DNA of 48,920 bases from a virus. Below, one piece after another: positions 4,836-33,300 of the stretch. The position numbers were made by a program, and so were the translations under genes. Below the pieces are notes generated by a model, which saw nothing but the letters and a program-made list of their open reading frames with translations, was not told the DNA's origin and made no database searches. Numbering within the stretch: the stretch's first letter is position 1; each line of letters begins with the position of its first letter. The stretch lies in IMG/VR virus record IMGVR_UViG_3300041809_000868, positions 1-48,920 of that record. One strand, 5' to 3'.

Positions 4836-4848
4836 GGGAATACTCCTT

Positions 4849-5127: not shown

Positions 5128-5148
5128 GTGACTCCTTTCGAGAAACGA

Positions 5149-5234
5149 GGGGGAGTAAGGCTGCGCCTGGCTGTAGTGCAAGTCAAACAATTCTTGACCT
5201 ACACCACAGTTAGTGGCGCAGACTTCACTCCCCC
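5149..5234 (-). promoter_or_regulatory. Long two-part RNA hairpin upstream of the small coiled-coil gene
   Basis: In the minus-strand transcript, 5234-5215 pairs with 5167-5149 (outer stem of about 17-19 bp, GGGGGAGUGA and CUGCGCC blocks), and 5209-5194 pairs with 5186-5171 (16 bp, unbroken). The inner stem has G-U wobbles that would be A-C mismatches in a plus-strand RNA, so the structure fits leftward RNA. It ends about 11 bases before the AAAGGAGT of the next gene. There is no T-run, so it is not an ordinary terminator. An RNase III processing site or translational control element is plausible. Confidence 0.75.
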
Positions 5235-5248
5235 ACAATAGGTTGTGG

Positions 5249-6403: not shown

Positions 6404-6686
6404 TTTTCTCCGTGTTTGGGTTCAGTTGTGTTGCAAAGTGTCTTGGTATTAGATCTTCTTCCATCGAAGCAATAAGCTCTTTCATAAGCTGTAGTGTGTC
6501 TTCCGACCAGTTCTTTGGATTGGCTGTGCACTTACCGTGTGTTCCAACTACACGAGTTAATTTGTGGTCATATTCCACTAGAGCATACACAGCGTTCATT
6601 ACGGTACCTGAGTCTGGGAAGTTGGTGACTGTTATTTCAGTCACTTGTAGTGCATTGATTCTACTCTCCGCTTCACAGGCTCTCAT
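6348..6686 (-). CDS. Hypothetical protein
   Basis: 112 residues, not recognised. The N-terminus could form a helix followed by beta strands (EITVTNFPD, VYALVEYDHKLTRVVG); the C-terminus is strongly charged (NTEKNDNDKRTEARGLEEADQV). Translationally coupled to the upstream gene through an ATGA stop/start overlap at 6683-6686, and overlaps the DUF932-like gene by 56 bases. Confidence 0.65.
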   Translation of the reverse strand: MRACEAESRINALQVTEITVTNFPDSGTVMNAVYALVEYDHKLTRVVGTHGKCTANPKNWSEDTLQLMKELIASMEEDLIPRHFATQLNPNTEKNDNDKRTEARGLEEADQV

Positions 6687-7060
6687 CCGTTGTTCCTATC
6701 AAAGCTCTTGAGATAGGCTCCCATCTCTTCAGCTCCCTGCTTGGCTTTTTCTTCTGCCACTATTCCTGCTTGATGAATGGCTTCCATGATTGAGTGGACG
6801 TCTTGGTTACATGCCACACTGACTGTTACTGTGGATTCGACAGTTAGCCCAGCATCACGAGTACTGAACCAGTTCTTGAAGCCACGAGTGACAGTGATAT
6901 TACTGAGACCATCTCCTACGGGAAACGGCATCTCGAACTGCTGATCTAAGTCCTTTTCTTGACGAATACGATTACCATCTGTTTTAACCTTCTCTGTTGC
7001 CTTACCTCTTACAGAAGCACTAGCTGGTATGTTTAGTCCTGGTATCAGGCTCTTTGGCAT
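6683..7060 (-). CDS. Hypothetical protein
   Basis: 125 residues, not recognised. Predicted basic N-terminus (ASVRGKATEKVKTDGNRIRQEKD), central beta-rich part with alternating hydrophobics (LTVESTVTVSVAC), and a C-terminal helix (DVHSIMEAIHQAGIVAEEKAK). Start ATG has AAGGAAG at good spacing. Coupled to the next gene by an ATGA overlap. Confidence 0.7.
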   Translation of the reverse strand: MPKSLIPGLNIPASASVRGKATEKVKTDGNRIRQEKDLDQQFEMPFPVGDGLSNITVTRGFKNWFSTRDAGLTVESTVTVSVACNQDVHSIMEAIHQAGIVAEEKAKQGAEEMGAYLKSFDRNNG

Positions 7061-7190
7061 GTTCTTCCTTTGATTTTACTTGTTGTCCGCATCGGCATAA
7101 CCAACTAGTGATCGTGCCATTCTCTATTATTGGAGTTTCTGGCTCATGGTCACAGCCAAACAGATCTTCACAATCTAAGTCACTGGTCAT
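7020..7190 (-). CDS. Small Cys-rich protein, candidate zinc binder
   Basis: 56 residues starting MTSDLDCEDLFGCDHEP. Cysteines C7, C13, H15, C32 and C34 could form a small zinc site (C-x5-C-D-H ... C-x-C). The ATG lies 3 bases after the upstream stop (TGAGTATG), consistent with coupling, but the ribosome-binding site is weak (AAGAGA). It overlaps the next gene by 41 bases, a degree of overlap seen elsewhere in this operon. It fills the only gap in this stretch, which supports it being real. Confidence 0.5.
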   Translation of the reverse strand: MTSDLDCEDLFGCDHEPETPIIENGTITSWLCRCGQQVKSKEEHAKEPDTRTKHTS

Positions 7191-7192
7191 AC

Positions 7193-7690
7193 TCAGTCTC
7201 TTGGTAGTGCAGGTAGATTGAATGGTTTTGGTGTTCCAGGCATAGATGCAGGATTCTGTGCATCTTCGTGATAGGCATCCCTCACTATGAGTGGGTCTAC
7301 CTCTCCCTGCCTAAGCATCTGCTCGAGCAGAGGTTTGTTCAGCTCATAGGAAATTTTCCTGGTTAGAACCAGGTCTGCTTGTCCCACTGGTAGGTGCTCT
7401 GATAGGAAGTCGGTATCATAGTACCGATCAACTCTCTTCTGTGCACCTATTCCATTGTAGACAAGCTGGTTCCTATCAGATCTCTGTAGCTCTGCTTTCA
7501 CTTCTCGTACTGCAGTGTCTAGTGCGAGGTTTCTTTGTTCTACTAGGTTGTAGAACTCTTCAAGCATGGGTCTGTAGGCCGGGTCCTTCATGAAGGCTCG
7601 AAGCTCCTCATCTGCTTCTTTGAAGAGTCTAGCGTTTCGTTGAGCTGTGCTCTCTGGCGGCGTCTCAGTTGTGGTTTTTACCTTTTTCAT
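7193..7690 (-). CDS. Hypothetical protein
   Basis: 165 residues, mostly helical and highly charged; Pro-rich C-terminus (NPASMPGTPKPFNLPALPRD). No family recognised. ATG overlaps the stop of the upstream gene (TCAATGA) and has a perfect GGAGG ribosome-binding site, so it is well expressed or tightly coupled. Confidence 0.7.
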   Translation of the reverse strand: MKKVKTTTETPPESTAQRNARLFKEADEELRAFMKDPAYRPMLEEFYNLVEQRNLALDTAVREVKAELQRSDRNQLVYNGIGAQKRVDRYYDTDFLSEHLPVGQADLVLTRKISYELNKPLLEQMLRQGEVDPLIVRDAYHEDAQNPASMPGTPKPFNLPALPRD

Positions 7691-7926
7691 TGACGCCTCC
7701 TATTGAAATAGGTGTTTATCTTTGGTCCGTCTTTTACCCAAAATATTTCTAGGCGTGGCCCATAGGGACCATGTATAGGAAATCTGACTCCATGATATTG
7801 AATATCCCAACAATAGTATTTTCCTACATACCAGTTCTTTTTATAGAACACTGTTACCATCTCACCTATCCTAAATACTTTGTGCTCAGTCTTCTCTGTC
7901 TTGGTCTTCTTCTTCTTCTTCGACAC
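7687..7926 (-). CDS. Small basic protein, unknown
   Basis: 79 residues from the GTG at 7926 (AAAGGTCC upstream); a longer form from an ATG at 7971 is possible but has no clear ribosome-binding site. The N-terminus is Lys-rich (VSKKKKKTKTEKTEH), followed by a compact beta-rich segment with many aromatics (YKKNWYVGKYYCWDIQYHG). An SH3- or KOW-like nucleic-acid-binding fold is conceivable, but this is inference. The 5' end overlaps the end of the glycosylase gene by about 40 bases in another frame. Confidence 0.6.
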   Translation of the reverse strand: MSKKKKKTKTEKTEHKVFRIGEMVTVFYKKNWYVGKYYCWDIQYHGVRFPIHGPYGPRLEIFWVKDGPKINTYFNRRRQ

Positions 7927-10191: not shown

Positions 10192-12446
10192 TTCTTGTAT
10201 CGCTCCTGTTCGTCAAATGGTCTGAGAATTGTGTATTCTAATGGCCCACCCTCATCAGCAGGCCATTCATTGATTAGCTTCTTCAGTTGTCTGCATGCTT
10301 TGTGGAATTTTGGTATGAACACATGATCCATGATTACAACTACTGGATGATTTCCACCACCACGATACCCAAGAATTCTACCCATGCCTTGTTGCAGAGT
10401 ATTCTTTCCACCGTCCTCTACTGCTCCACTACCGAATGGAGTGAGGAAGAAGATAGTGTCTAGGGTCTTTTCATCCAGGGCTTCTTTCACTAACTGAAGA
10501 GTCCCAAAGGTTATCTGTCTGGTTCTCAAGGTCTCTATTCTAGCCGCTGGCTTTTCACGACCAGTGCACAGACCAGAGTCTGGAAATCTGTCATGGAGAA
10601 GCCGTAGTTGATCTACACTGTGGCTCAGTACTAGAATCTTTCTCTTTTTGCTGATGGGTAGTTGTAGTTTCTCTGCTATGAAATCATTGTTGGCTGGGAG
10701 TGCACCCAAGTATGTTCTCAGCTTTGGTACATTGATCTTACCACCAGCATAAACTTTGCTTTCTACATCAGGGTCTCGAGTGTCTATGCTGACAGGTACT
10801 TCTTGTATGTAGATACGAGGCTTCACTTCCTGAGACAAGTCCCGGAAGAAGGTGGGCCCAATATGGTACTGATAGATTGGCTCAAGACCGTCTTCTCGGT
10901 TCACTGTGGCTGTCAATCCCCAGCGATCTCCATAGAACATCGGAGCTGTGTGGACAAACAGTGGAGCCGATAGATGATGTACTTCGTCATAATAGATGTT
11001 ACCAAAGTATCTATCAAAGCCTGTTGGTATTTCCTCATAGCGAAGGGACAATGAGTGGATCATTGCCAGAACTATTCCTCTATCTTCCCAGTCCCATTCT
11101 GCTGGGTCTCCTTGTACTAATCCAATACCTCCATCTACATTCATGAATGTTTCTATGCGAGCCTTCCACTGATCTATGAGTGTGGTATTGTTTACGATCA
11201 CTAGAGCTGGTACTTGCTTATGAGCCATGTGTTGTAGAGCTATTTGTGTTTTGCCTTTGCCGCAGTTCGTCACAATGATCCCATTGGCCACAAAGTTGTG
11301 GTGTGGGTCGTCACACATGATGTCGTATACGTCCTCTACTTTGTGAGGAATGATTGACTTGATCTTTACTGGTGTAGGTATTCCATAGCCAAAGGCTCTG
11401 TCTCCTGGCCTGTGACCGCCTAGATGCTTTTCTTTTAGGAGTACTTCTAGATTGTCTGGGCTATTGTTCTTTGTGTTTTCGTCCTTATGGTGTACGTGGT
11501 ACACTTTTGGATCAATGAATTTGAGCCAAGAGATCCTCCCACTTTTGAATATCTCTCTATATGCCTGGATGCTTGGTATGCCATTGAGTGTGCACTCAGC
11601 TACGAGTCGATGCTCTTCGATCACATACTTGACCCACTTTCCGTGCTGTAGCTCTCTTCTTACAAATGGGTGCTTTTCATACCAGCATAAGCGTCTGTAG
11701 GACACCCTAGGTTTTCTGATCGATTTAGGTCGGTTAGCATCTACCAGAACCTCCATCCCCTCTTTCAGTTTGGCTAGTGGTACAAACTCTCCAGATGGAA
11801 CCTGTACTCCATGATCGTTTGTCAGTCTCAGCTGCTTACCGTCTTGAAGTGTAAGCGTGTAAGTCTGTTTCTTCCCTTGGTACAGAATTCTCAGTATCTT
11901 CTGCAGTCCTATTTGACCATTCTTATTGGCTCTTATGTATGTAGGTATAGACAGGTCCCACGGATGATGTTCTCTGCCTAAGGTATCCTTGTGCTTGTAG
12001 AATGCTTCTTTTATTGTAGTGCTGAACCCCTTACCGGCCCTATTGAGTCCGATCTTAGTGTCTCCAGACAGACATGATAGATTCAGTAGTCCGCACTTGG
12101 CCTCACACATAGCCTTGAAGGCTCTGCGCTGAATGTCTTTGTCTGGCTCAATAGCATCCAGTACTATTCGGCTGTTGAAATTGACTTTGTTATAGTGAGT
12201 GGGGCCAACATAGATGATCGGAAATGGAGCATCTTTGTACTGGCTTCTAGGAATGAATTCTCGTGGAACAAGAATGTGTGTATCATTCTCCTCCCACAGC
12301 TGCAGGAACTCGATCCCAGTCTCACCCAGGACCGGAAACTCGAGTCCTGCTTTGATAGAGCGGACGTTGACATGTTTCTTTGGTATCCAGAGTTGTCTTC
12401 CAAAATATCCGTTGTCTGGGTCCTTACGGACTAGGTTGATCTCCAT
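10188..12446 (-). CDS. UvsW/superfamily 2 DNA helicase interrupted by an intein
   Basis: 752-residue precursor. The extein is an SF2 helicase of the UvsW/RAD25-like type: motif I SCGKGKTQ is split by the intein and reformed on splicing (S124 joined to C395), motif II is YYDEVHHLS, motif III GLTAT, motif VI QGMGRILGYRGG. The N-terminal about 110 residues match the accessory domain of such phage helicases. The spliced protein would be 482 residues. Likely role: branch migration, unwinding of R-loops and recombination intermediates during replication. Coupled by overlap to the next gene and 8 bases from the upstream one. Confidence 0.88.
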   Translation of the reverse strand: MEINLVRKDPDNGYFGRQLWIPKKHVNVRSIKAGLEFPVLGETGIEFLQLWEENDTHILVPREFIPRSQYKDAPFPIIYVGPTHYNKVNFNSRIVLDAIEPDKDIQRRAFKAMCEAKCGLLNLSCLSGDTKIGLNRAGKGFSTTIKEAFYKHKDTLGREHHPWDLSIPTYIRANKNGQIGLQKILRILYQGKKQTYTLTLQDGKQLRLTNDHGVQVPSGEFVPLAKLKEGMEVLVDANRPKSIRKPRVSYRRLCWYEKHPFVRRELQHGKWVKYVIEEHRLVAECTLNGIPSIQAYREIFKSGRISWLKFIDPKVYHVHHKDENTKNNSPDNLEVLLKEKHLGGHRPGDRAFGYGIPTPVKIKSIIPHKVEDVYDIMCDDPHHNFVANGIIVTNCGKGKTQIALQHMAHKQVPALVIVNNTTLIDQWKARIETFMNVDGGIGLVQGDPAEWDWEDRGIVLAMIHSLSLRYEEIPTGFDRYFGNIYYDEVHHLSAPLFVHTAPMFYGDRWGLTATVNREDGLEPIYQYHIGPTFFRDLSQEVKPRIYIQEVPVSIDTRDPDVESKVYAGGKINVPKLRTYLGALPANNDFIAEKLQLPISKKRKILVLSHSVDQLRLLHDRFPDSGLCTGREKPAARIETLRTRQITFGTLQLVKEALDEKTLDTIFFLTPFGSGAVEDGGKNTLQQGMGRILGYRGGGNHPVVVIMDHVFIPKFHKACRQLKKLINEWPADEGGPLEYTILRPFDEQERYKK
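11265..12074 (-). mobile_element. Intein in the helicase P-loop, with HNH endonuclease
   Basis: Residues 125-394 (270 aa). Block A CLSGDTKI with Cys1 (C125); block B LTNDHGVQV; block F VYDIMCDDPHHNFVANG; C-terminus IIVTN followed by Cys+1 (C395). The penultimate residue is Thr rather than His. The insert is an HNH endonuclease (YHVHHKDENTKNNSPDNLE), not LAGLIDADG as in the other inteins here. It sits between S and C of the Walker A loop, so the helicase cannot bind ATP until spliced. Confidence 0.9.
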
Positions 12447-16324: not shown

Positions 16325-17172
16325 AACACATCACAGAAGATCATATGGCAGCTATGCTCTCTGAGCTTCAGAAAGAGGCTGGTGTGGCGAATGTTTTGAG
16401 CAAGGGTGTTAAATACTTATCTGCTGCTCCTTTGCTAAAAAATCTTCCTAGCATTCAGTCTAGAACCGGTCAGATGCTGGCTGGTGGTGCAGTGGGTGCT
16501 GGTATTGGGGCGGCTACTGGGGACGAAGGAGATCAATTGCACAGAGGAGTGCTAGGCGGTTTAGCCGGTGCTGGAGCTGTTGGTCTAGGTCATCTTGCTA
16601 CAAAGAGTGGTAGAGAAGCAGCTGGTAAAGGTATAGGGGACTTCTGGAATAGGCAGAAGTATCAGTTCACGAGTAAAGGGATTGAGGGCACTCATCCAGA
16701 GCGTGTGGCTAAGGCGAGAGAGATAGGATTGCTTCCCAAGTTGGAGGCAGATGCTTCCCCAAAAGTGCTAGCGCAAGATGCTGCTGCACAGGAAGCTCTC
16801 AAGCATGATTGGTTATCTCTTCCAGGATCTATCCATGGTTTGGTTACAAAGCCAGGCGCTGTGCTCAAGAATTCTTGGAATCGAATGGATGCCTTAGGTA
16901 AGGGATTGACTGGTGTAGCTGGTGTTACAGCAGCTTCAGACTTACTACAGAGACCAGATCCGAATGGTCCAGGGAGACTAGAGAAAACGCTGGGCAATGC
17001 TGCTGGAGCACTAGGATTCACTGCTGGTCCAGCTGGTATGATACCTGGTCTGTTGCTGGGTGGTTGGACGGGTAAAGCTGGTCAGCGAATTGGCCGTGTT
17101 GGTGATCGTTTGATGGGCCATAACCCAGAACAGGCCAAAGTCTATAACCCCACCTATGAGGGAGCTGTATAA
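16264..17172 (+). CDS. Glycine-rich, probably membrane-active virion protein
   Basis: 302 residues as given; a start at 16321 (ATG overlapping the upstream stop as ATGA) would give 283 and is about as likely. Contains long Gly/Ala segments (TGQMLAGGAVGAGIGAATGDEG, GVLGGLAGAGAVGLGHLATK, and GNAAGALGFTAGPAGMIPGLLLGGWTGKAG) that could insert in or disrupt membranes, as in phage internal ejection proteins. Similar in style to the protein at 46005. Immediately precedes the portal; stop and portal start share TAATG. Confidence 0.65.
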   Translation: MGLSSFERKAVEGTAAATHMKHITEDHMAAMLSELQKEAGVANVLSKGVKYLSAAPLLKNLPSIQSRTGQMLAGGAVGAGIGAATGDEGDQLHRGVLGGLAGAGAVGLGHLATKSGREAAGKGIGDFWNRQKYQFTSKGIEGTHPERVAKAREIGLLPKLEADASPKVLAQDAAAQEALKHDWLSLPGSIHGLVTKPGAVLKNSWNRMDALGKGLTGVAGVTAASDLLQRPDPNGPGRLEKTLGNAAGALGFTAGPAGMIPGLLLGGWTGKAGQRIGRVGDRLMGHNPEQAKVYNPTYEGAV

Positions 17173-20100
17173 TGTCTGTAGGTTTAGGTGGCGCAGACTC
17201 TTCTGCTCTTAGATTCGCTAGATCTCGAGGTCGTACTGGCAGCTCTGCAGATTACGGTCTGCAGTACCCTAGTCCATTTTTTGATATTGGACAGACTTAC
17301 TTACCAGCTACCATCAAGCAGATGTTTAGATGGTGCCGTTACTACTTCTTAGTCAATCCATTGATCAATGCAGTGGTAGCTAAGATGGCTGACTACCCAG
17401 TCACTGACATCATTCTGGATACAGAGAAACCAGATCTGAAGGACAAGTGGTACCATTTCTTGAATGCACAGCTTAGGTACCGTCCATTTCAGATCGAACT
17501 AGGTTTGGACTACTATGCCTACGGAAATGCTCTGGTTAGTATCTTTTATCCATTCGTAAAGATGCTCAGATGTAAGCGCTGCGGTCACGAAAAGCAGGCT
17601 TCTGATGCTACATACCGATTTCAGAATTTTGAGTTCCACTGGGAGTGCACTAAATGTAATCACGCTGACATAGCCTTAGTGCGTGATCATTACATTAAGG
17701 CTCCAAAGGGTATCCGTTTGCTTCGGTGGAATCCTGAGGACATTGATACTAGATACAACGACATCACTGGTGAGTCAGAATACTACTATACAATTCCAGT
17801 TCAGATCAAAAATGACATCATCATGGGGAAGAAATCTACTGTGGAGACTATGCCACAGCTCTTCATTGATGCTTTAAGGCTAAGAAAAGCCGTAGTGTTT
17901 TCACGGGACAACATCTATCACTTCAAGCGGCCAACATTGGCCGGAAAAGATAGAGGTTGGGGTACTCCGATGATCCTGCCTGTTCTGAAGGATACATTCT
18001 ATCTTCAGGTTCTCCGCAAGGCACAAGAGTGTGTCAGTCTAACTACTCAGATCGAAACAATCAATGGTTTGGTTGATGCTAATGAAGTACGTGTTGGGGA
18101 ACTGGTACGTACTCACACAGGTAAGTGGCAGCTGGTAGAAAAGAAGTGGTATAGGAATGCCCGAGAAGAAGAGGTCGGCAAAAAGATTACACTGTCGGGC
18201 CTTCGACCACTCTCAAGTACCTATTCTCCACATCACCCAATACTAAGTATTCGTAGGACGGAGGAGAGCAGAAGATCTGATTCTAAAGATGCTCAAGTAT
18301 CGTCCGTTATCCTTCGTAACCCACACCTGTATGAGGAAGTGCTCTGTCCCGCAGAGCAGCTTCATGTAGGTGAATATGTCTTGTATCCTCGGTACCTGCC
18401 AGTAGGACAAACTACTGTAGATGCAGCAAAGTACACAGGTCTGACATGTACAGGAGACTGGGTATATAGCGGTGTCTGTGAAGAGACAGCACAAGCTTTT
18501 GAATCACTAGAACATGGTAAGCATGTTCAGCATGACAATGCTAGTAGAGCAGCTAAACGGTCTCTGAAAGAGGGTCGTACACCAAAACGGATGGAAGCAA
18601 TTAGACCTATGACAGAGGACCTTGCTTACATATTAGGTTGGTATGCCGGAGATGGAAGCTGTGGTTCCAGGTCTGTGATGTTTTCTCTAGGGAAGGATGA
18701 TGATTCAAATCCGCTGAAAGAGGCGATCAGAAGAGAGTTTGGTGTAGAAGCTACTGTCGAAGTAGGTGAGTCCATAGATACGATTGTCTTATCAGATGTC
18801 ATAGTTAGGCATTTAATCAAAGGTTTGATTCCTGGAACAGCTAGACACAAGAAAGCACCACAAGAAGTTTTGAATGGTACTGACGCTGTGAAGCTGGCTT
18901 ATCTTCGAGGTTTGTGGGAAGCAGATGGTTCTTTTGACCTAACCAGAGCAACGCTGTCTACAGCTAGCAAAGATCAAGCTTATGATGTGTACAGACTTCT
19001 ATTGCACTTTGGTTGTATTGCATCAATAAATCAACACGAAACTCCAGATCACGTGTTGGATTCTGGTAGAGTGATCAAGGGTGGAGCACATTATCACACG
19101 ACTGCTTGCCACGCATCCAGGGATAGGTTTGTATCTTTGCTTGCAGGTGTAAAGTGCGAGGAGATAACATCAGGTAAGAGTGGCTTCTTCTGGAAAGAAT
19201 ACTTTGCATCCAGAATTCATGTGATTGAGGAGTCGGAAGAAGAGCAGTACATTGATTTCAAGATCAAAGAAGATACTACGTTCTGCACACCTGGAACAGC
19301 GACGAAAAATAGTATAGCGTTAGAGCACATTGTTCCTTTGCGTGTGTTATTCCCACAAGCTGGGTCAGCGACCTCGGACCCATACTGCCTTGCGTCATCC
19401 TCTATAGTAGAAGCCAATTTGGGCTATGAGGATGCTGGCAAGATCAAAGTAGGGGACTTGATAAAGACAGTTACTGGAAAGTATGAACCTGTAACTGCCG
19501 TGAAAAAGAGACGGGTACGCAATGGTGAGAAGGTCTACAGAATTGGTGTTTGTGGCATGTCTGCTGCTCCTGTAGAGCCCTCAGAGGACCACCCATTCTT
19601 TGTTGTGAAGTCTAGTGGTAAGAGGAAAGCTTTGGTCAAGGACTGGAGACCAGACTGGGTACCTGTCAAAGACCTGCAGGTAGGTGACTATGTTGCCTAC
19701 CCTCTTTCACGCGAGATCAAAAAAGACTTGCAAGTAGATATTGCCCAGTATCTGAAGTCGTATGTGGCTACGGAAGATTGGGTCTATCGTCAGATTACAC
19801 AGGAAGGGGCAAAGGTCTATGAGTATGTAGAGCAGCGAGAGCAGAGAGCCTTTGCAGGAGGAGAGCTGCAGAGTACTGTTGCCAAGTATGGTTGGTCTGT
19901 GTCTACTCTTCAGACGGCTGCTAGTCGCTACAGGCGAGGCCATAGGACATCCAGGTTGCCAAGGTTTATCAAGTGGTCCAAAGAGCTAGCTACGATAGTT
20001 GGGTACTATCTAGCTGAGGGAAGCTGCGGAGATCATATTATCTTCTCACTCAACGCCAGTGAGGATTGGATTTGTGATGAGCTAGATGCTGCTTTCATGG

Positions 20101-23096
20101 CCATTCTTGGGCACGTAGGTGCTAGAAGGCCCAAGGGCGAGAATGGTCTCACGTATGAGATGAATGATTCGATCTTTGCTGAATTCCTTACCAATTTCTT
20201 GGGGCACCTTGCACCAAATAAGAGGTTGCCGAAGGAGGTAGTGCACCTACCCGATGAAATCTTGCAGGAGATTGTGCGTTGCCTGATCAATGGAGATGGG
20301 GGTGCTGAACAAGGGTACAGAGACAATGGTACAGGTAATCCTTGTCGCACATCTGCTGTTACTTTCACCAGCACATCCAGAGACCTATCTTTCAAACTCC
20401 GTGAGCTTTTACTGTACTTGAGAGTGATAGGGCGAGTACACACAACCACTTACGCTACTGGCCCCAATCTCCCTGTCCATCGCGTAAAAATCAACGGAGC
20501 CGAAGCAGTCAAGCTGTGGACTATGCTGGGTTGGAAAGTACCAGCACTGCCGGTCAAGAAGGATTGCACTAGGTCCTTCATCCTTGGGGACTATGCTTTC
20601 TTTCGCATTCAGAAGAAGGAAGAGATTCAAGGTGTGGAGTTTGTGTATGGCTTCCAGGTTGATGGGGATAAGAGTTTCTGCGTACCTGCTTGTGCCACAC
20701 ATAATACCTCTGTCAATTTGATGGACTGGCATGATCAGATCGCAGGAGAGCTGCGTCGGTGGAGATGTATTACTCCAGAGTCCTTTGTAGAAACACGTGA
20801 AGGTCTGCGCCAAGCTGGTAATGTTGGTGTTGGGGATTACCTAAAGAATAGACACGGTAAATTTGAGCGTGTGACCAAGCGGCATGATAGGGCAATGGAT
20901 GCTGGGGAGTGCGCATATAGATTGAAGGTACGAGGACAACATGCTGTAGATACCGTGTATTCTGAAGAGCACCCTATATGGGCTGCTAAAAAGATCAATA
21001 ACGGTAATGGACACAAGCTCGGTACAGCAGACTTTATCCCAGTTGCTGAGTTATCACCTGGAGATTATGTTGGTTATCCAACAGCACGCAATATCAACAA
21101 GGTAGAAAGACTTGATCTAGCAGAGTATGTAGATAGGGCTGTTACGGCAGATTGGGTTTATATAGACCACACTGATCAAGACGTACCGGAGATTTTTGAG
21201 TATCTATCTACACACGGTGAAATAGATTCCCGTAAGGAGCTGCTTGAAGAGCATGGTTGGGGATTGAATTCCTACAAATGCGCACAGGCTGCAATCAGAG
21301 AAGGGCGTGTGCTTAGAAGGGTACCTAGATACTTGTACCTAGATCAAGAGCTGGCGTATGTTTTGGGACTATACGCTGCTGAAGGCAACACCACTGCTAA
21401 AGGAGTATTTTTCTCACTTCACAAGGACGAGACAGCATTTGTGGATAGATTGGACAGCTTTTTTGCACTCCGTTTTGGTGCCTCTAGAACGGGTGGAGAT
21501 AAGTCGGAGAATGGAATTCAGATTGCTTACCCAAGCGTAGTAGCTGCTCAGTTGTTCCATGCATTGATTCCAGGTACTGCGATCAATAAGAGCTTACCAG
21601 ATGTAATTAAATGTGCTCCAGATGATATAGCAGCTGCTGCGTTACGTGGAGTATTAGATGGTGATGGTTCCTACTACGAAGATAAGACAGTGCTGGGAGT
21701 ATCTAGTAGGCAGTTAGCAGAAGATGCACGCCAGCTACTGTTATCTTGGCAGATACTACCAGGCATATCTTTTGTAAAGGGGCAAGACATTACTATTTGT
21801 GGAAAAAAGACTAGAGGTAATGGTTGTTACCTTGTTCAAGTATCTGGGGATGCACACAAGCAACTATCTGCTGTATTAGCAGGTGAGGTGTATTCTGGAT
21901 CAACTTTCAGTCGAATAGGTCTATTCCGAGACGGCTTCGCCTGGTTCCGAATTGAGGAGGTGACAAAGGTAGAGGTGGATACAGTAGTGGCATTTCAAAT
22001 GGAAGGAGACAGCACCTTTTGTACATGGGGAGTTGCGACGCATAACAGCGATAACAACTACATACCTATTCTTCCTTTACCGATTGGGCAACAGACCATT
22101 GGTGGTGATGGAAGAGCTCTACTCTTGAGCCAGGAGATTAGAGTATGGTCTGAGCACATCATTGCGGGTATGGGCGTACCTACAGAGCTCATTTTTGGTG
22201 GACTTAGCTACTCAGGCTCTAACGTATCTTTGCGTATGCTAGAGAATATGTTTCTTGGCTATCTCTCTGATCAACTTGCTCTTCTTCGTTGGGTAATCAA
22301 GCGTACTGCTTCATACCTTGGTTGGTCTGAGGTTGGGGCAAGATTCAAGCCATTCAAGATGGCAGATGATTTACAGAGGAAGGCTTATTTGTTTCAGCTT
22401 AATCAAGCTGGAAAGATATCAGATGAGTCGCTTTGTTCTGATGCAGACTATGACTCTGCCAAAGAAGATAAGATCATGGAGAATGAAGCTACTCGTCGTA
22501 TCGGTGCGATGAAGAAGCAGCGTTTACTCCAGGCAGAGATGGAAGGTGAGGCTCAGTTAGTCCAACAGAAGTGGATTAACAAGGCTCAAGCTAAGGCACT
22601 GGCAGATCAGACTGCTATTGCTGGTGAGGGAGCTAAAGATCAAATGGCATTTCAGGCAGAGATGCAACAGGGTATGCTGCAAGACCAGGTTGCAGCACAA
22701 ACCGGTCAAGCGCCTCCACCAAAGAGCCCAGACATGACACCTACTCCAAGGAATCCATCACTGATTGCTGGGCCAAAGGAGATCAATTCACCACTCTCTT
22801 TGCAGAGTGTTCAGAGGCATCCACCTTCTGCTACCAATGAGGATATTGCTGGTGGCATGAATGTAGACCTGTTGTTCATGGCAAGGAAATTGGCGGATAA
22901 GTTCTCTAGACTTAATCCTGGAGAGAAGCCAGTAATGTTGAGTAGGTTGCAGAAGTACAATCCAGCTCTACACGATACCGTTGTTGGGCTAATGATGAGC
23001 GGTGGTAACGGTCCCACTGCTGCATCACAGGCCGCTGCGAGGCCGTTACCGTTGCAACGTACACCTCGCAGAGGCCCTGAAGCAGCCCAGGTCTAG
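17172..23096 (+). CDS. Portal protein carrying three inteins
   Basis: 1974-residue precursor; 680 residues after splicing, a normal portal size. Extein pieces: 1-286, 714-738, 1179-1198, 1626-1974. Portal assignment rests on the N-terminal wing (WCRYYFLVNPLINAVVAKMADYPVTDI), the clip/stem region, PILPLPIGQQTIGGDGRALL, and the region IIAGMGVPTELIFGGLSYSGSNVSLRMLENMF typical of large-phage portals. The C-terminus (after about 1740) is charged, then Pro/Gln-rich. An unusual zinc ribbon (C134, C137, C159, C162) sits in the first extein. The portal is the dodecameric ring at the capsid vertex for packaging and ejection. It converges on a leftward gene with a 4-base overlap. Confidence 0.82.
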   Translation: MSVGLGGADSSALRFARSRGRTGSSADYGLQYPSPFFDIGQTYLPATIKQMFRWCRYYFLVNPLINAVVAKMADYPVTDIILDTEKPDLKDKWYHFLNAQLRYRPFQIELGLDYYAYGNALVSIFYPFVKMLRCKRCGHEKQASDATYRFQNFEFHWECTKCNHADIALVRDHYIKAPKGIRLLRWNPEDIDTRYNDITGESEYYYTIPVQIKNDIIMGKKSTVETMPQLFIDALRLRKAVVFSRDNIYHFKRPTLAGKDRGWGTPMILPVLKDTFYLQVLRKAQECVSLTTQIETINGLVDANEVRVGELVRTHTGKWQLVEKKWYRNAREEEVGKKITLSGLRPLSSTYSPHHPILSIRRTEESRRSDSKDAQVSSVILRNPHLYEEVLCPAEQLHVGEYVLYPRYLPVGQTTVDAAKYTGLTCTGDWVYSGVCEETAQAFESLEHGKHVQHDNASRAAKRSLKEGRTPKRMEAIRPMTEDLAYILGWYAGDGSCGSRSVMFSLGKDDDSNPLKEAIRREFGVEATVEVGESIDTIVLSDVIVRHLIKGLIPGTARHKKAPQEVLNGTDAVKLAYLRGLWEADGSFDLTRATLSTASKDQAYDVYRLLLHFGCIASINQHETPDHVLDSGRVIKGGAHYHTTACHASRDRFVSLLAGVKCEEITSGKSGFFWKEYFASRIHVIEESEEEQYIDFKIKEDTTFCTPGTATKNSIALEHIVPLRVLFPQAGSATSDPYCLASSSIVEANLGYEDAGKIKVGDLIKTVTGKYEPVTAVKKRRVRNGEKVYRIGVCGMSAAPVEPSEDHPFFVVKSSGKRKALVKDWRPDWVPVKDLQVGDYVAYPLSREIKKDLQVDIAQYLKSYVATEDWVYRQITQEGAKVYEYVEQREQRAFAGGELQSTVAKYGWSVSTLQTAASRYRRGHRTSRLPRFIKWSKELATIVGYYLAEGSCGDHIIFSLNASEDWICDELDAAFMAILGHVGARRPKGENGLTYEMNDSIFAEFLTNFLGHLAPNKRLPKEVVHLPDEILQEIVRCLINGDGGAEQGYRDNGTGNPCRTSAVTFTSTSRDLSFKLRELLLYLRVIGRVHTTTYATGPNLPVHRVKINGAEAVKLWTMLGWKVPALPVKKDCTRSFILGDYAFFRIQKKEEIQGVEFVYGFQVDGDKSFCVPACATHNTSVNLMDWHDQIAGELRRWRCITPESFVETREGLRQAGNVGVGDYLKNRHGKFERVTKRHDRAMDAGECAYRLKVRGQHAVDTVYSEEHPIWAAKKINNGNGHKLGTADFIPVAELSPGDYVGYPTARNINKVERLDLAEYVDRAVTADWVYIDHTDQDVPEIFEYLSTHGEIDSRKELLEEHGWGLNSYKCAQAAIREGRVLRRVPRYLYLDQELAYVLGLYAAEGNTTAKGVFFSLHKDETAFVDRLDSFFALRFGASRTGGDKSENGIQIAYPSVVAAQLFHALIPGTAINKSLPDVIKCAPDDIAAAALRGVLDGDGSYYEDKTVLGVSSRQLAEDARQLLLSWQILPGISFVKGQDITICGKKTRGNGCYLVQVSGDAHKQLSAVLAGEVYSGSTFSRIGLFRDGFAWFRIEEVTKVEVDTVVAFQMEGDSTFCTWGVATHNSDNNYIPILPLPIGQQTIGGDGRALLLSQEIRVWSEHIIAGMGVPTELIFGGLSYSGSNVSLRMLENMFLGYLSDQLALLRWVIKRTASYLGWSEVGARFKPFKMADDLQRKAYLFQLNQAGKISDESLCSDADYDSAKEDKIMENEATRRIGAMKKQRLLQAEMEGEAQLVQQKWINKAQAKALADQTAIAGEGAKDQMAFQAEMQQGMLQDQVAAQTGQAPPPKSPDMTPTPRNPSLIAGPKEINSPLSLQSVQRHPPSATNEDIAGGMNVDLLFMARKLADKFSRLNPGEKPVMLSRLQKYNPALHDTVVGLMMSGGNGPTAASQAAARPLPLQRTPRRGPEAAQV
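18030..19310 (+). mobile_element. Portal intein 1 (LAGLIDADG)
   Basis: Residues 287-713 (427 aa). Begins C287 (CVSLTTQIETINGLVDANEV), ends TATKN with Ser+1 (S714); Lys takes the penultimate His position. Block B-like STYSPHHPIL. Two LAGLIDADG motifs, both with acidic catalytic residues: YILGWYAGDGS and YLRGLWEADGS. Shares with portal inteins 2 and 3 a DWVY segment and a basic module before the first LAGLIDADG motif. Confidence 0.92.
19386..20705 (+). mobile_element. Portal intein 2 (LAGLIDADG)
   Basis: Residues 739-1178 (440 aa), only 25 extein residues after intein 1. Begins C739 (CLASSSIVEANLGYEDAGKI), block B SEDHPFFV, ends CATHN with Thr+1 (T1179). Motifs IVGYYLAEGS and CLINGDGG keep acidic residues. 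Has the DWVY segment of its two sisters. Confidence 0.92.
20766..22046 (+). mobile_element. Portal intein 3 (LAGLIDADG)
   Basis: Residues 1199-1625 (427 aa), 20 extein residues after intein 2. Begins C1199 (CITPESFVETREGL), block B SEEHPIW, ends VATHN with Ser+1 (S1626). Motifs VLGLYAAEGN and LRGVLDGDGS are intact. Clear paralogue of inteins 1 and 2. Confidence 0.92.
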
Positions 23097-24319: not shown

Positions 24320-27300
24320 TTGGCACGTCTTGCACCGGAAGAGGGGTTTGACCTCCTCAAAGACCGAGTACAAAAGGCAGTCAGCGGGCTCTTCCCCATT
24401 ATTGGTAGGAAGAACACGCTAGAGCTTCATGATGTAGCGGTTAAAGATAATCTGAGTATCGATGATCTTAGATCGCAGAAACAAGCTAAGTTGAGTGGTC
24501 GCACTTGGTCTGTGCCTGTTGAAGCCACCATTGTTCTGAAGGATAACGCTACAGGCAATGTGATCGACAGACAGAAAATGAACCTTATGAACTTGCCTAA
24601 GGTAACCAGTAGGTACAGTCATATTGTGGATGGGCAGGAGTACCAGATAGATAACCAGTGGAGGTTAAAGCCTGGTGTCTACAACATGGTTAAGGCAGAC
24701 GGTCAGCTTGAGTCTCACATAAATGCTGTTGGTGGCTTCAAGATTCACTTTGATCCTAAGTCAAAAGAGTTTTCTCTGAACTATGGCAACTCAAATATGC
24801 CATTGAAACCATTCCTTCATGCCATGGGTGTATCTGAGGAAGAGATAGAAAAGGCGTGGGGTAAAGACATAGTAGATGTCAATCATGCTGACGCCACAAA
24901 GGAGTTAGCTAAGTTCTATAGAGCGTCTACTGGAGATAAGACCACAAGACCAACTCCTGATGAAGCAAAAGCTCATTTATGGGAGGTCATGGGAAAGACC
25001 GTACTACGACCAGAAGTGAACAAATTCACTTTAGGTAAGGAGTACTCCACAGTGACTGGGCCTTTGCTATTAGATGCTTCTCACAAGCTACTTCAGATCT
25101 CTAGAGGTGAGACACAGCCAGATCCTAGAGACGCACTTATGTTCAAAGACTTGCACTCTATTGAAGATTTTGCAGCAGAACGTATCGTTAAAGGTTCTCG
25201 AGAAATCCTCAAAAAAGTCAGCAATAACATTGATCGTAAAGCTAAGGTGAGAGACATCATAGCTCCTGAGATATTTAACCGTCCTATCAAACAGATGTTC
25301 GGTAAAAACTCTTTAGCTATTGTTACTGATCAAACTAATCCACTAGAGATGATGTCATCTCAGATGAAAACAACCATCATGGGCGAGGGTGGTGTTAAGT
25401 CTGAGCATCAGATCAGTGATGATGCTAAGCTTATTGATCCATCTCACTTGGGTTTCTTAGATCCTATACATACTCCAGAAGGTCATGCTACTGGAATTAC
25501 ATTACGCTTACCTCTTGGTGTGGAGAAGTTTGGTCATGATGTTGCAGTTAATATGTACAACACTAAGACTAAAAAGATGGAGCACGTTAATCCAGCACTA
25601 GCGTATAAGTCTCACGTAGCACTTCCAGATCAAGTATACTGGGATGGTAAGGTACCTAAGGCTGCTGGAAAAATAGTTAAGATCAGTGGTCCTGGCAATG
25701 AGATTTATGAGGGTACTCTGAAGGATGCAGACTATGTAATGACAGATCCATTACAGATGTTTTCAGTCTCTTCTAATATGATCCCATTCATGCAAGCAGA
25801 CCATCCTAATCGTAGTACGATGGCTGGTCGTCAAATGGAGCAAGCAATCTCTTTGAAGCATAGAGAGGTACCGCTTGTACAGAGTTTGGCCGGTAAGCAG
25901 ACTTTTGATAAATTGGTTGGTATCTTCGCCAGTCATAGAACTCTAGAAGATGGCGTAGTACATAAGATCAAGCCAGATTCTATAGTGATCAAGAATGACA
26001 AAGGTGAGAAGCACGAGATCTATACTTATGATCACTTTCCATTGAATGAGGATAAAGCATTTTTGCATGCAGAACCTATTGTGAAGGTTGGTGATCGCGT
26101 AGTAAAAGGTCAGACTGTAGCTGACACTAACTACACTAAGGGCGGTACGCTAGCTATTGGTACGAATTTACGCGCTGGTTTTATGCCATACAAGGGCTAC
26201 AACTTTGACGACGGTATAGTAGTCAGTGAGAGTGCAGCTAAAAAGCTTACGTCCGAACACTTACACAGGCATTCTTTGGAGCGGGACATAGCTCACATTC
26301 TAGACAAGAAAAAGTTCCAGGCGTACATGCCTACAGCTATGAACAAGGCTCAGTATGATAAGTTAGACGAGGAAGGTGTTGTACTACCAGGTACTGTAAT
26401 TATGCCTGGTGATACTTTAATTGCTGCTCTTCGTGCTTCTAACGATCCTGAGAGAAAAGAAGACATAGAGCTTTCAAAGCTTCACAAGTCTATAGTCAGA
26501 CCGTATAAAGACTCTAGTATAAAGTGGGACAGTGATTATCCTGGGATAGTGAAGGAGGTTGTGAAGGTAGGTAAGAACGTGTCTGTTCACGTAAAAACAG
26601 AAGAGCCTTTAGAGATTGGTGACAAGCTTTGTTACGCCGAAGATCACGAGCTACTCACATCCACTGGTTGGAAAGGGGTGAAAGACGTAGTAATCACTGA
26701 TCTCATATGCTCTCTTAACCCGGAAACAGACGAGATTGAATATTTACCACCAGCAAAAGTAGTGTCTTATGACTGTATAGATGATGATCTATATGTGTTA
26801 GATACTACTCAGGTTTCCATGGCTGTGACTATGGAGCACAAGACTTATGCGAAGTTGCGTAGTAGCGCCAGACATGAGCTATTGCCAGTAAGTAGTATCA
26901 AGGGTAAGCGCTATCGATTAAAGATGCATGGCAAGTGGACTGGTACAGATGCATCAGTGTTTACGTTTCCTGCTTTGCAGGTAAAAGCTGGTCAGGGTGG
27001 CAGAGGCACTAGGTGGCTTCCAGCCATAGACATGCCTATGGATACGTTCTTAATGCTACTGGGCATGTTCCTTTCTGAGGGCAACGTCTACAGCGGCAAC
27101 GGAGATCATTACATAGAGATTTGTCAGATCAAACAGCCTAGTCGTAGTCATGCAGAGGAGGCACTGCACAGTGCCGGTATCGGCTTTACCAATACTCCCG
27201 AAAAGCTACGTATACACGGAAAGCAGCTGTATGAATACTTTGTTCAGTTTGGACATGCTCCCAACAAATATGTGCCAGATTGGGTGTTCCAACTTCCACC

Positions 27301-30300
27301 GAAGAGGCTACGTGTACTCTATAAATGGTTAATGTGGGGGGATGGTTACGAGAAAGGTAGTGTGGATAGGTATACTAGCGTCTCTTCTCAATTAGCTGAT
27401 GACATACAGAGACTGCTTTTACATCTTGGTCTTGCTGGTAGAGTAATCACAGAGCCTGGTTATCGAGGCAGCATAAAGGGAGTAGAATACGATTTTAAGA
27501 CTAGATACAGGGTACAGGTAATCAAGTCTAAACTTGAGCCTACGATCAATCACGGTCATGCAAAGAAACAGAATGGACAAGAGGAGCAGATTACGAAGTA
27601 TACAGGTAAAGTATACTGTGTAGCTTTACCTAGAAACCATGTTCTCTACACACGTAGAAAAGGTAAAGTACACTGGTCTGGTAATACTGGTCGTCATGGT
27701 AATAAAGGGATCGTGACATATATTGTGCAAGATCATGATATGCCACATACTAAGGACGGCAGACCAATTGAAATACTACTGAATCCTCTCGGTGTTACTG
27801 GTAGAACCAACCTAGGCCAAGTACTAGAGGTGGCTGCCGGTAAAATTGCAGAAAAGACTGGGAAGGTATACACAGTAAAGAATTTTGCTCCTGGTACAGA
27901 CCTACATGCACAAGTTACAGCAGATTTGGAGAAGAGTGGTCTTACTGATAAAGAAGAAGTAATTGATCCGTCTACTGGTAAGACTATGGGTGATGTGCTT
28001 GTTGGGCCCATGCACGTACTCAAGTTGCACCACCAGGTAGAAAAGAAACTGAGTTCACGTGCTGGTGGAACTGGTTATGCTTATGACAAGAACATGATTC
28101 CTAAGGGTGGCGGTCCACAGGGCGCAAAGTCCTTAGGTACTCTTGGTCTGTATTCTATGCTTGCTCATGGTGCGGTAGCTAACCTAAGAGAGATGCAGAC
28201 TCTAAAGTGCTTCACGTGGGGAACTCGTATATTCACAGATCAAGGGCAGATACAAATCGGTAAAATCGTCAATCAAAAACTAGACGTACGAGTTTTATCG
28301 TGGAACCCGGTTACTGGCAGCACTGAATACAGACCAATACTGAATTACTGGAAGAGACCTGCTGGTGACGACAAGTTGGTAGAGATTGAATATCATGCAC
28401 ACGGAGAACGAGGAGTCTTTACAAAGCATTATCAAAGGTGTACGCCAGATCATAAAGTGTACATAGAGGGCGGAATAAAGACAGCTGCTAAAGACGTAGC
28501 TGGAAAAAACGTACTAGTACCAGCCCTAAAACCCAATCAATATCAGCTAGATGTATTAGTTGGATCATTACTTGGTGATGGTAGTATGGGCGTGCAAAAT
28601 GGTCCATTTCCGGCATTCGTAGAAAGGCACTGTTTAGCACAACAAGAATACCTGGCCTTCAAAGCTGATGTGTTGTCTGATTTCTCAGATAGGATCGTTA
28701 CACCATACAATGCTGGTGAGGACGGTTTCAATACTGGGCAGACTATGTGTGAGTGGGCTACTTTGGCTCAACCAGAGTTTGTTCCTCTGTATAAATCATT
28801 TTACTGTGACGGCATAAAGAGAGTACCTACTGACATAGTGGACCTGCTGACTCCACTGTCACTGGCTATTTGGTATCAAGATGACGGCTCACTGACGCAT
28901 GGTAATAGACAGAGAATACTGCGACTGCATGTGGGACTATTTAACACCACAGACTGTGATCTTCTGGTAGACGCCATACTTAAATTGACTGGGGTTCAGT
29001 TTACAGTAGGTACTACAGAGACTACTTACAATGGTCGGCCATCTATTCAAAGATTTCTAAGAGTAGGTACTCGTGCCGGTATTGACAAGTTTCTAGACAT
29101 AGTGCGTCCGTACGTACATTCCTGTCTCTCTTACAAAGTGGATGATCAGGCTTGTGGTGAAAAACTAGCCGAAGTGAGTGACAGAAGTGTCGCTCAATTT
29201 GTTTTGACACCAGTTGAGGTACACTCAGTACGTCAAACTAATTTTCAGCAGTGGGATGGGCCCTACTTATATGACCTAGAGGTAGAGGAGAATCACAACT
29301 ACTTTGCTAACTATATGTTAGTAGGAAATAGTGATGCATCACAAGGAGATCAATTCTGGTCTGCTATTCAGGCTGGAGAGATGCTACCTACTCCTAAGCC
29401 GACTTTTGCCTACAACAAGTTCTTAGGGTACATAAGAGGACTTGGAGTAAATGTACAGAAAACCGGTAACAATCTTACCCTTCTACCCATGACTGACAAG
29501 CAGATCATTGAGCAGAGTAATGGTGAAACTGTAAATCCTGCTCTCTGGGTAACAGCTAAGAACATGAAGCCTGAGTCCGGTGGCCTCTTTGATCCTAAAG
29601 TTACTGGTGGTCTAGAAGGTACAAAATGGAGCCACTACAACTTACCAGAAGCTTTTCCTAATCCAGTTTTTGAGAGTGCCATTATTCGTCTTCTTGGCAT
29701 CAAGCAAAAAGAATTCAGCGGGTTGGTCGGTGGTACTTTAGCAGTAGATCCAGTTACAGGTAAAATAGGTCCATCAGAAAAAGTAAAAGGTGGGTTGGTT
29801 GGTGGTTTGGCTTTTGAGCATATGCTTGGCAAGATCGATGTTAAAAAAGATCTGGCTGCTGCTAAGCAAGCTTTGGAAAAGCCTACGTTAAAGGGGTCTT
29901 ACTTAGATCATGCTAATAGTAAAGTGAAATTGCTGCAGGCACTGGATAAAGTAGGTATGACTCCAAAAGAGGCGTATCTAGCCAAGACTATTCCTATCTT
30001 GCCTCCTTCTATGCGTCCTCTTCCTGTTCTACCTAACGGTACTATTAGCGAAGAAGACTTGAACGGTCTGTACAAGAATCTACATTTGTCGGCTTCTCGT
30101 TATGCCAAGATGTCCCCGTTAATTCCTGATGACGATCCGTCTAAAGTAGATGTACGTAACGAAATATACGATGGCTTGAGTGCTCTAGCTGGTATTGGTG
30201 GCTATCCGAAGCAAGTACGCAGAGGTATTCTTGACTATATTCATGGCAAAAAGGTTATTGATTTCAATACTGGCGCTAAGGGTGGCTCTCCTAAAGAAGG

Positions 30301-33300
30301 CTTCTTCCAAGATCAGTTAGTTGAACGCAAACAGGATATGTCAATGCGTGGTACCATCATTCCTGAACCCTCCTTGGGGTTGGATGAGGTAGGGCTACCT
30401 AGATCTGCAGCCATAGAAGTGTACAAGCCATTCGTTGTACGTGAGCTAAAGAATATACTCGGCGTAACACCACTACAGGCACAAAAGCTTCTAGATCAGG
30501 GGGGAGAGACAGTAGACCGTGCTCTTGATAGGGTTATTTCCAATCGCCCTATTCTACTCAAGAGAGACCCGGTTCTTCATAAGTACGGTGTACAAGCTTT
30601 CAAGCCTCGTATAGTTGGCGGTAAGGCTGTGCAGGTGCATCCTCTAGTTACCAGTGGTTTCAATGCTGATTTCGATGGTGATGCTATGGGTGCTTTCGTT
30701 CCGGTGAGTGTGGACGCTGTAGCTGAAGCACACAAGATGTTACCTTCAAGGAATCTATTCAGTCCTTCTACTGGTGAGATCATGTACGCTCCTACGAATG
30801 AGAGCAGGCTTGGTCTTTATGGAATCATGCAGCCAGGTAAGATAACGGCACATAAGTTTACCAACATGCAGGATATGGAAGCTGCTGCACGAAAAGGTGA
30901 TGTAAAACTTACAGATCAAGTAGACATTGGCGGTATTAAGGCTACTGTAGGAAGATTCATGGTTGCTGGTGCATTACCAGAGTCTATGCGCAGAGCTTTA
31001 CTTGAAGGTAAAGAACCTCTGGATAAGAAGGCACAAGAGGCTCTATTTACTAAGATAGGTAAGGAGCACAAAGGCGATTACGGTGAAGTAGCCAACAAGC
31101 TAAAAGATCTGGGAAATATGTGGGCTACTAATACAGCTTTCTCTATAGGCATGAAGGATATAGCTCCTGAGCGTCAGATGAGAGATCGAATATTAGCAGA
31201 GGCTGATGCTCAAGTGCATAAACTAACCGGACCACATAAAGATCAAAAGCAGATTGATATTTATGCTAAGGCCACCGATGAGATGAATAAACATCTCAGG
31301 TCTGTGTCTGAGACTGATAATAATCTTATGCTCCTGCACAATGTAGGTATGAAGGGTGGCACCGATACTCTCAGACAGATACGTGCTGCGCCTATGCTTA
31401 TGAGTAATCACAAAGGGGAGATCATACCTATTCCAGTTCGTAGGTCCTATTCAGAAGGACTAGATGTTGCTGACTACTGGACAGCTATCAGTGGTTCTCG
31501 TAAGGGCATCATTCAAAAAGTTCAGTCTGTTCAAGAGCCTGGTTACATTAGTAAGCAGGTTATGAACTCAGTCATGAATAATCTGATAGTAGATCATGAC
31601 TGTGGTACAGATAAGGGTATAGCTCTGCCTGTAGATGAGAAAGACATTCTGGATAGGTATACAGCTGCAGATATCAAGGCTGGTAGTCATGTATTCAAAT
31701 CAGGTACGTTGATCACACCTGAAGTACGTAATACACTACGAAACAACAACGTAGGTAAAGTAGTAGTTAGATCACCACTACGTTGTCTACATGGACCAGG
31801 TATCTGTCAAAAATCCATGCTCCCAGAGACAGTAGTGACGGCAAAGCATGACGGTGTCATCCATAATTTGTCTCTAGAGGCATTGTTTGATCTAGTATCC
31901 GCACCTATAGATGTTTCTGATTGTGGTGTAGAGATGAAGATGCCTGTAGGGTGGGAGATTTCTGATAGCGGCGAATGGGTTGGGTTAGAGAGAGTTGTAC
32001 GACACGCACGTGAGCTGAATAAGGCTATGTTGGAAGTGCGAACTACACATGGGCGCACCCAACACTTAACTGAAGATCATACTGCTATCGTGTGGAGACC
32101 TACTTCCTGCGTATGTGGGTCACTACGTATATCCATAGACAATAGAAGTCCAGACACTAAGGCTTACCTGTATTGTAGGGACTGTAAGAGAAACTGGACA
32201 GTAGATAGGGAGGCGTGGGAGTTTGCTGAGCGACTAGAGATACCAGCAGAACAGGTAATGCCTGGAGACAGGATAGAGTACTATCCATTTTTGACACAGT
32301 TTCACGGTGAGAAACCAGCGACACCATCACTTGATCCGTATTGGCTGGGGCTGTATTTAGCTGAAGGATCTACGGATAGAAATAGGGATTACCCGAGGAC
32401 AGTGAACATTGCCCAGCAAGATAATAAGTGGCGTCCTGGCATGATTAAGGCGTGTACTGCGGTTACAAAAAATGAACCACACGCCACAGAGAGCAGCATT
32501 GTCATCAATGATGCTGCCCTAGTCAGAGAACTTGTCATGGTGCTGGGCAGCCTAGAACTGTGTGATAGAAAGGTTCTGCCTACTACGTGGTTATTCTGGG
32601 ATGATAGATACATCGGAGATGTGGTGTCTGGTTTGATAGATGGTGACGGTCATGCCAGAGAACGAGACAATGGAACGCATGAAGTACTGATAGGTTCTAC
32701 GTCGTACACGTTGCTGGTTCAGGTACAGGATTGGTTAGCCAGACACGGTGTTCGTGCAGACCTGTCTTGTAAGACACATACTCCGAAGCCGGGAGATATT
32801 GTCAAGACTAGGAGAGACTTTTTCCACCTTACATTTTCTGCAAATGATCTTGTCTTAAGTAGGCTAAAGAGATCACAGAAGATGCTAGGCCTGTCTGCAT
32901 GTAATGGTAAGTATGATCTTAACAAGAAGTACGCAACTGTTCTGCAAGTAAAGGATGTGAGTGACCGTATACACTGCAAGTATGTATATGACGTTACAAC
33001 GACTAGTCGTAAGTTCACAGCTAATGGACTACATACACACAACTGTTTTGGCCTTACTGAGAATGGTGTGCTTCCAGAGAAGGGACTTAATGTAGGTGTC
33101 CTTGCAGGACAAGCACTCGGAGAACGCACTACTCAGCTTGCTCTTAAAGCATTCCACTGCAGTCACGCAAAGTCTATAGTGTTTGTTCGTGGTACGCACA
33201 CTGGGGTACTTCCAATTACACTAGAGGCATTGTTTGATCTTATTGAGTCTCCGATCTATATGAGCGGAACAGAGGAAGTAAAGAGTGTGTCTGGTTGGCA

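Follow-up and report, generated by a model that had tools for sequence, protein, structure and literature searches.

How do three inteins come to lie within 45 residues of one another in a single phage protein, and would so interrupted a chain still give a normal product? The question is raised by a portal gene in a 48,920-base virus record, a metagenomic virus fragment that is called the window here. How an intein comes to occupy a new site is not settled, and non-allelic inteins are usually not each other's kin. Judged from sequence comparison, the three portal inteins very probably represent one intein family at three neighbouring sites, which arrived in separate invasions by homing and would be spliced out in cis to leave a portal of 680 residues.

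The portal gene and its intein borders

The layout of the gene is given below. Site numbers (115, 286, 311, 331, and 386 in this text) denote the portal residue after which an intein sits.

17172..23096, + strand: portal gene, a single open frame of 1974 codons
17172..18029, + strand: N-extein, 286 aa
18030..19310, + strand: intein 1 (site 286), residues 287-713, 427 aa; DWVY 18456-18467, basic stretch 18546-18593, LAGLIDADG motifs 18633-18656 and 18903-18932; Cys1 first, S-x-x-H as block B, TKN last, then Ser
19311..19385, + strand: micro-extein, 25 aa
19386..20705, + strand: intein 2 (site 311), residues 739-1178, 440 aa; DWVY 19776-19787, basic stretch 19914-19964, LAGLIDADG motifs 19998-20024 and 20274-20303; Cys1 first, THN last, then Thr
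20706..20765, + strand: micro-extein, 20 aa
20766..22046, + strand: intein 3 (site 331), residues 1199-1625, 427 aa; DWVY 21150-21161, basic stretch 21279-21329, LAGLIDADG motifs 21363-21389 and 21642-21671; Cys1 first, THN last, then Ser
22047..23093, + strand: C-extein, 349 aa

A first-pass annotation of this DNA had read from the letters three inteins of 427, 440, and 427 residues, separated by micro-exteins of 25 and 20 residues, with a DWVY segment and a basic module ahead of the first LAGLIDADG motif. The borders and lengths were reproduced exactly in the 1974-codon frame, the DWVY segment and basic module are present in all three inteins, and the residues that it named for would-be skipped junctions (286 to 1179 or 1626) are correctly placed. 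The joined exteins of the window align with the intein-free portal of locus L005 over 680 of 680 residues, with 94.7% identity and no gap. The 25-residue micro-extein length is kept in 56 of the 57 portals tabulated below (L050 has 24), and the 20-residue length is kept in all 57. Since the exteins close up gaplessly with L005 and both micro-exteins are kept in relatives, the inserts are not a product of chance.

The host protein was taken from the outset to be a portal. By sequence, neither Pfam nor PHROGs gave a portal match, and the PDB sequence search was without a useful match. A relative is annotated as portal in Salmonella phage Arash, and a terminase large subunit gene lies at 40220 in the window. 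A structure model of the intein-free relative L005 has only portal or neck entries among its best 50 listed matches, the best of them with Z 16.6 and rmsd 12.7 over 349 residues. The modeled fold thus bears out, with the annotation and the terminase gene, that the host is a tailed-phage portal. Sites 286-331 would fall in the stem/clip region, a placement that we infer because the L005 model is unreliable at residues 271-320 and 333-395, where the portal inteins sit.

Intein identity and predicted chemistry

Several features of class 1 inteins are found in the portal inserts. L005 and other homologues close exactly, without a scar, where the inserts lie; the first residue is Cys1 in 24 of 24 distinct inteins at sites 286, 311, and 331; block B is S-x-x-H in the same 24, with Ser at the Thr place of T-x-x-H and the His retained; and the C-terminal Asn of each portal insert is followed by Ser or Thr, within the class 1 set of Ser, Thr, or Cys. 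The penultimate residue is His in inteins 2 and 3 and Lys in intein 1. Penultimate His is usual and not obligatory, being an assisting residue according to the part of the source that was available (PMC4031507). Pfam LAGLIDADG_3 matches all three inteins, with the match in intein 2 under its cut-off. A structure model of intein 1 (mean pLDDT 92.6) matches the full-length inteins TliVMA, PI-SceI, PI-PkoII, and PI-PfuI, and in this model intein 1 is a Hint fold with an inserted two-motif LAGLIDADG domain. On these motifs the three are class-1-like LAGLIDADG inteins that are predicted to self-splice.

Class 3, in which the N-terminal nucleophile is lacking and a Cys stands at F:4, was ruled out by the presence of Cys1. 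In our own alignment F:4 is D, G, A, or S, and the extra Cys of the family lies further on: all 24 distinct inteins of the three sites have it after the Phe of block F, and the other complete inteins of the window lack it. By the same alignment, nine of ten site-286 inteins pair the penultimate Lys with Asp at F:4, and the tenth, together with all 14 at 311 and 331, has penultimate His with Ser, Gly, or Ala at F:4; a single change on the tree could explain this pairing, which is suggestive only. A few damaged elements occur among the relatives: odd LAGLIDADG motifs were seen in L045 and L071, and the element of L109 has lost its endonuclease. A site-286 intein in L056 (about 5001-6281) has one in-frame TAG, for which sequencing error, decay, or suppression is possible.

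Occupancy of the sites among related portals

Is the trio a single inherited unit, or a stack of separate arrivals? We tabulated 57 portals: the window, 3 from the phage collection, 39 loci found by the portal query, and 6 + 8 loci found by intein queries. Left out were L004 (the window itself), L056 (in-frame TAG), and the loci re-fetched from the same contigs (L044, L051-L055, L057-L063, and L072); L108-L111 were found after the table was made and are not in its counts, and near-identical sets (L006/L008, L045/L047, L069/L070, and others) are counted within the 57. Inteins are carried by 22 of the 57, a share inflated by the intein-query loci (among portal-query loci alone, carriers are 7 of 39). 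The remaining 35 are intein-free and close up; the first-pass annotation had named homologous portals that keep the segments as evidence against its reading, and none came up.

Carriers number 2 at site 115, 11 at 286, 13 at 311, 4 at 331, and 5 at 386, in many combinations. The trio of the window (286+311+331) recurs in L024, whose extein core is about 80% identical. L006/L008 occupy 286+311+386, L033 occupies 115+331+386, L040 occupies 115+331, and L069/L070 occupy 311+386. Site 311 alone is filled in L012, L064-L068, and L071, and site 286 alone in L009 and L045-L050 (the L009 contig stops before site 386). Of the 57 portals, 7 have site 286 as the only filled one of the three, 9 have only site 311, and 2 have only site 331, and because of this single-site occupancy each portal intein evidently persists without the other two. 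The extein tree requires 8, 9, and 3 occupancy changes at sites 286, 311, and 331. With sites gained and lost independently, the trio reads as a stack of separate invasions and not as a fused unit. The inteins at sites 115 (L033/L040) and 386 (L006/L008/L033/L069/L070) are of other kinds, the one at site 115 being short (318 aa) with a TGN end.

That the trio was inherited, or homed, as one cassette moved in a block is suggested by the shared trio of the window and L024. The L024 inteins, however, are diverged by 0.80-0.87 at synonymous sites as against 0.87 in the extein, and inteins nearly as diverged as their extein argue against a recent block transfer. Inteins 1 and 3 have their nearest alleles in two different phages, L009 and L033, with neither phage carrying the pair, and co-homing of neighbouring inteins was inefficient in the haloarchaeal MCM gene, as far as the available part of that paper describes it (PMC10643990). 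Together with the many combinations in which the sites are filled, this makes a cassette improbable, even if it fares best among the alternatives to separate invasions.

The closeness of the three sites is not in itself evidence: when five sites are placed at random, 21% of draws have three of them within 45 residues, so clustering was set aside as not significant, and the kinship of the inteins is the significant part. The 45-residue block has no special conservation among the portal windows compared (rank 119 of 407).

One family, sorted by site

Separate invasions of neighbouring sites by one family require that the three inteins be kin, and the alternative is that three unrelated inteins came independently from other genes and merely look alike. 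Identity between inteins of different sites is just 24-36%, as would suit independent arrival; within a site it is 52-86% (main site-286 alleles), 63-85% (331), and about 30-70% (311). Profiles of single-site alleles nevertheless score 154-345 bits on the two remaining sites and stay at or below 87 bits on all non-family sequences tried, which were 12 virus stretches with intein or endonuclease matches, 4 phage-collection stretches, the window's other inteins, and the portal inteins at 386 and 115. When the profile is made from the DWVY-basic module, which is common to all three sites and without a match in the window's other inteins, the signal is of the same kind but weaker (4-52 bits across sites versus at most 3 bits outside).

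In the tree, 24 portal inteins split from 4 outgroup inteins at 100/99. Site 331 forms a clade at 100/100 and site 286 at 100/99, and the two join at 98/97; site 311 is basal and may be paraphyletic, a site-311 clade being not rejected (AU p 0.197). The outgroup consisted of four nearer inteins in place of RNA polymerase inteins, which had been tried and rejected for overlong branches, one of them joining a site-286 intein, probably by attraction. Within these comparisons the inteins at 286, 311, and 331 are one family apart from the other inteins, and the leave-one-site-out profiles and rooted tree leave independent arrival unlikely, a little more so than the cassette. The first-pass annotation had called the three inteins sisters and had proposed a phylogeny as the check; the tree agrees, with the refinement that they are, by this sequence evidence, old siblings sorting by site and not recent copies made inside this phage. 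Such sorting is characteristic of allelic inteins, each of which homes to its own site.

With tblastn against the phage collection, intein 3 had no match, intein 1 had 4 weak matches, and the site-311 intein of L008 had 5 weak matches; a distant intein lies in another phage gene of Enterococcus phage vB_Efa29212_3e (22.8% identity over the full length), which could be counted for an independent origin. Genome contigs searched with queries A2 and A4 gave 7 and 16 pattern matches, of which 0 were confirmed. Viral contigs queried with intein 2 alone also gave 0 confirmed; the portal query had found L024, which carries a relative.

Possible movement to new sites

Two sets of loci show family members at positions other than the three portal sites. 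In L109-L111, positions 5001-5840 encode a 280-residue family member without endonuclease after portal residue 333, that is, two codons downstream of site 331, with flanks that close up to the usual length and Ser after the insert where relatives have Asn. The tree places this element as sister of the site-331 inteins at 99/96.

In L108, a 461-residue family member lies in an unrelated frame of 1992 residues (1719-7694), and an initial view of the family as confined to portals was dropped on that account. Its placement in the tree is basal and unsure. A profile search for a portal gene in the L108 phage was empty, an answer that proves little there. The L108 flanks are GDPY and TS, compared with SDPY and TS at portal site 311, and 15 bases across the insertion point are identical to site 311 of L033/L040. 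When the 18-base core of L108 is compared with 450 portal positions, site 311 comes out best, whether scored by mean or by maximum; of the 4575 positions in the L108 host gene, none other than the insertion point reaches 15 of 18. When the flank is lengthened to 36 bases, site 311 is third among 430 portal positions. Part of this likeness could reflect splicing selection on the residues adjacent to the junctions, an explanation under which the codon identity of the two targets is harder to explain. The L108 host protein also has a second, different intein-like insert upstream of the family member.

Among 10 portals we found no similar DNA targets at sites 286, 311, and 331 (best pair p 0.046, uncorrected). 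With no DNA likeness among the three sites today, the specificity of the enzymes must have shifted, either as they moved or later. We lean, by a modest margin, toward a family that moved repeatedly to new sites, mostly within one gene, from 311 to 331, to 286, to the position two codons downstream, and to the L108 gene, through ectopic homing at look-alike targets. If this is true, ectopic homing has been caught several times, and the donor site, the acceptor site, and the relatives of each are available for study.

Mobility and selection

Is each lineage still spreading between phages? At site 286 the synonymous difference between the window and L009 is 0.525 in the intein versus 0.81 in the extein (95% CI of the difference 0.18-0.39). 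Corresponding values are 0.663 versus 0.827 at site 331 (window-L033) and 0.691 versus 0.869 at site 386 (L008-L033). At site 311 the intein is not clearly lower, either in window-L024 (interval -0.019 to 0.166) or in L008-L012 (-0.062 to 0.135). Third-codon GC in the same pairs is about 0.35-0.41 in inteins at 286 and 331 versus 0.46-0.60 in exteins, a gap that may bias the synonymous comparison. Exchange is also seen in identities: L050 and the window are 58% identical in intein 286 versus 33% in the extein, and L008 is 94% identical to the window in the extein and just 35% (286) and 34% (311) in the inteins, so that close relatives have been invaded by different lineages at the same sites.

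The residue after the intein points the same way. All 11 carriers of site 286 have Ser at +1, as do 9 of the 46 non-carriers (Fisher 9e-7, kinship ignored); with kinship allowed for there are 7 independent pairs, 4.9 the same way and 0 opposite (median p 0.0625). At site 331, Ser is found in 4 of 4 carriers and Ser or Thr in 10 of 53 non-carriers, with Ala in the closest intein-free relatives (kinship allowed for, 3 pairs, median p 0.5). In the 57-portal table, the +1 residue has no significant link to carriage at 311. A gene-conversion footprint next to site 331 (p 0.002 with L040/L005 and 0.12 with L033/L005) is suggestive only. Lower synonymous divergence, together with a +1 serine that goes with carriage, speaks for homing and for selection to splice, as far as sequence comparison can indicate. 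Values of dN/dS are 0.087 (286, window-L009) and 0.059 (331, window-L033), and in the endonuclease part 0.081 and 0.046 for the same pairs; by these ratios the portal inteins show purifying selection, endonuclease part included.

Predicted splicing of the precursor

The 1974-residue precursor would lose its three inteins in cis to give the normal 680-residue portal. Order is probably from N to C, each intein folding as its chain finishes; if cis splicing occurs on completion of each chain, intein 1 may be gone before intein 3 is made. The lineage at each site would spread between phages by its own homing endonuclease, presumably still active. The endonuclease targets lie 75 and 60 bases apart and would not have to overlap, so that one filled site need not destroy the target of its neighbour. 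Site 311 would have been the source for 286 and 331, and a member of the 331 lineage would have reached the position two codons downstream; a start at 311 is the simplest reading because the site-311 lineage is nearest the base of the family.

A different possibility had been raised by the first-pass annotation, namely cross-talk and exon skipping, in which the N-half of one closely spaced intein splices with the C-half of the next, the micro-extein is skipped, and alternative portals result. Three inteins of one fold family in one chain, with Hint C-halves 33-41% alike, give this some ground. We found no support for it: other phages keep each intein in the absence of its neighbours, the three have Hint halves with just 27-41% identity, and a skipped product would lack a conserved part of the portal, since the micro-extein lengths are kept in nearly every relative (56 of 57 and 57 of 57). 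Cross-splicing is thus, on this indirect evidence, very unlikely. Least credible of all is an assembly error or decaying gene, an idea owed to the metagenomic origin of the fragment, since the frame is unbroken, dN/dS against kin alleles is below 0.1, and the same trio is found in a separate contig, L024.

Comparison with known systems

A gene with several inteins, even with three that bear endonucleases, is not new, and neither is an intein in a phage portal; what would be unusual here is a well-supported ectopic radiation within one gene. Nearest to separate invasions of the portal by homing are the haloarchaeal MCM inteins a-d, which, in the accessible part of their description (PMC10643990), also occupy close sites in one gene, mostly have endonucleases, and are gained and lost independently. 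MCM-d carriers have a +1 serine, as do carriers at portal sites 286 and 331, and most empty MCM-d alleles have proline. The MCM gene differs in being an archaeal helicase, and no report of sister kinship of the a and d lineages was found in that part. The same source portion describes Haloquadratum walsbyi polB, a different gene with three large endonuclease-bearing inteins. Trichodesmium RIR (four inteins) and M. jannaschii RFC (three) are multi-intein genes outside phages, according to the portion seen of PMC1635734, where ectopic intein movement was argued to be very rare for lack of flanking homology. For haloarchaeal inteins, the consulted section of PMC4071816 supports at most one ectopic event.

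Among phages, the intein PORT in portals of mycobacteriophage cluster C1, with 6 such proteins tabulated, likewise interrupts a portal; it differs in that the available part of PMC5050341 makes no mention of more than one intein per portal. The crAss-like phages, in the part of PMC7886860 at hand, have two Hint-Hop inteins in TerL, likewise several in one packaging gene, but the gene and the intein type are different; their Zeta group has up to 3 inteins per genome. Neither tandem portal inteins nor sister inteins within one gene turned up in a literature that lay mostly outside subscription journals, and novelty is unproven.

With three neighbouring paralogous sites, a two-codon shift, and a member whose target in another gene matches, the family makes retargeting testable on real donor and acceptor sites. 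A natural three-intein precursor with very short exteins suits the measurement of splicing order and fidelity, and the close relatives of the host gene, empty or with one, two, or three inteins, are a comparative resource.

Other inteins in the window

Eight further intein-like inserts were found beside the portal three, which makes 11 in 49 kb. Their borders were set by motif and flank, with no intein-free homologue for each.

11265-12074, - strand: helicase, intein-like insert (HNH)
26630-27685, 28208-29329, 31814-33043, and 33158-34351: four inserts in the fused beta-beta' RNA polymerase
40571-41842: insert in the terminase large subunit, start uncertain
46793-47926 (complete) and 48203-48919 (cut by the window end): inserts in ORF 46568
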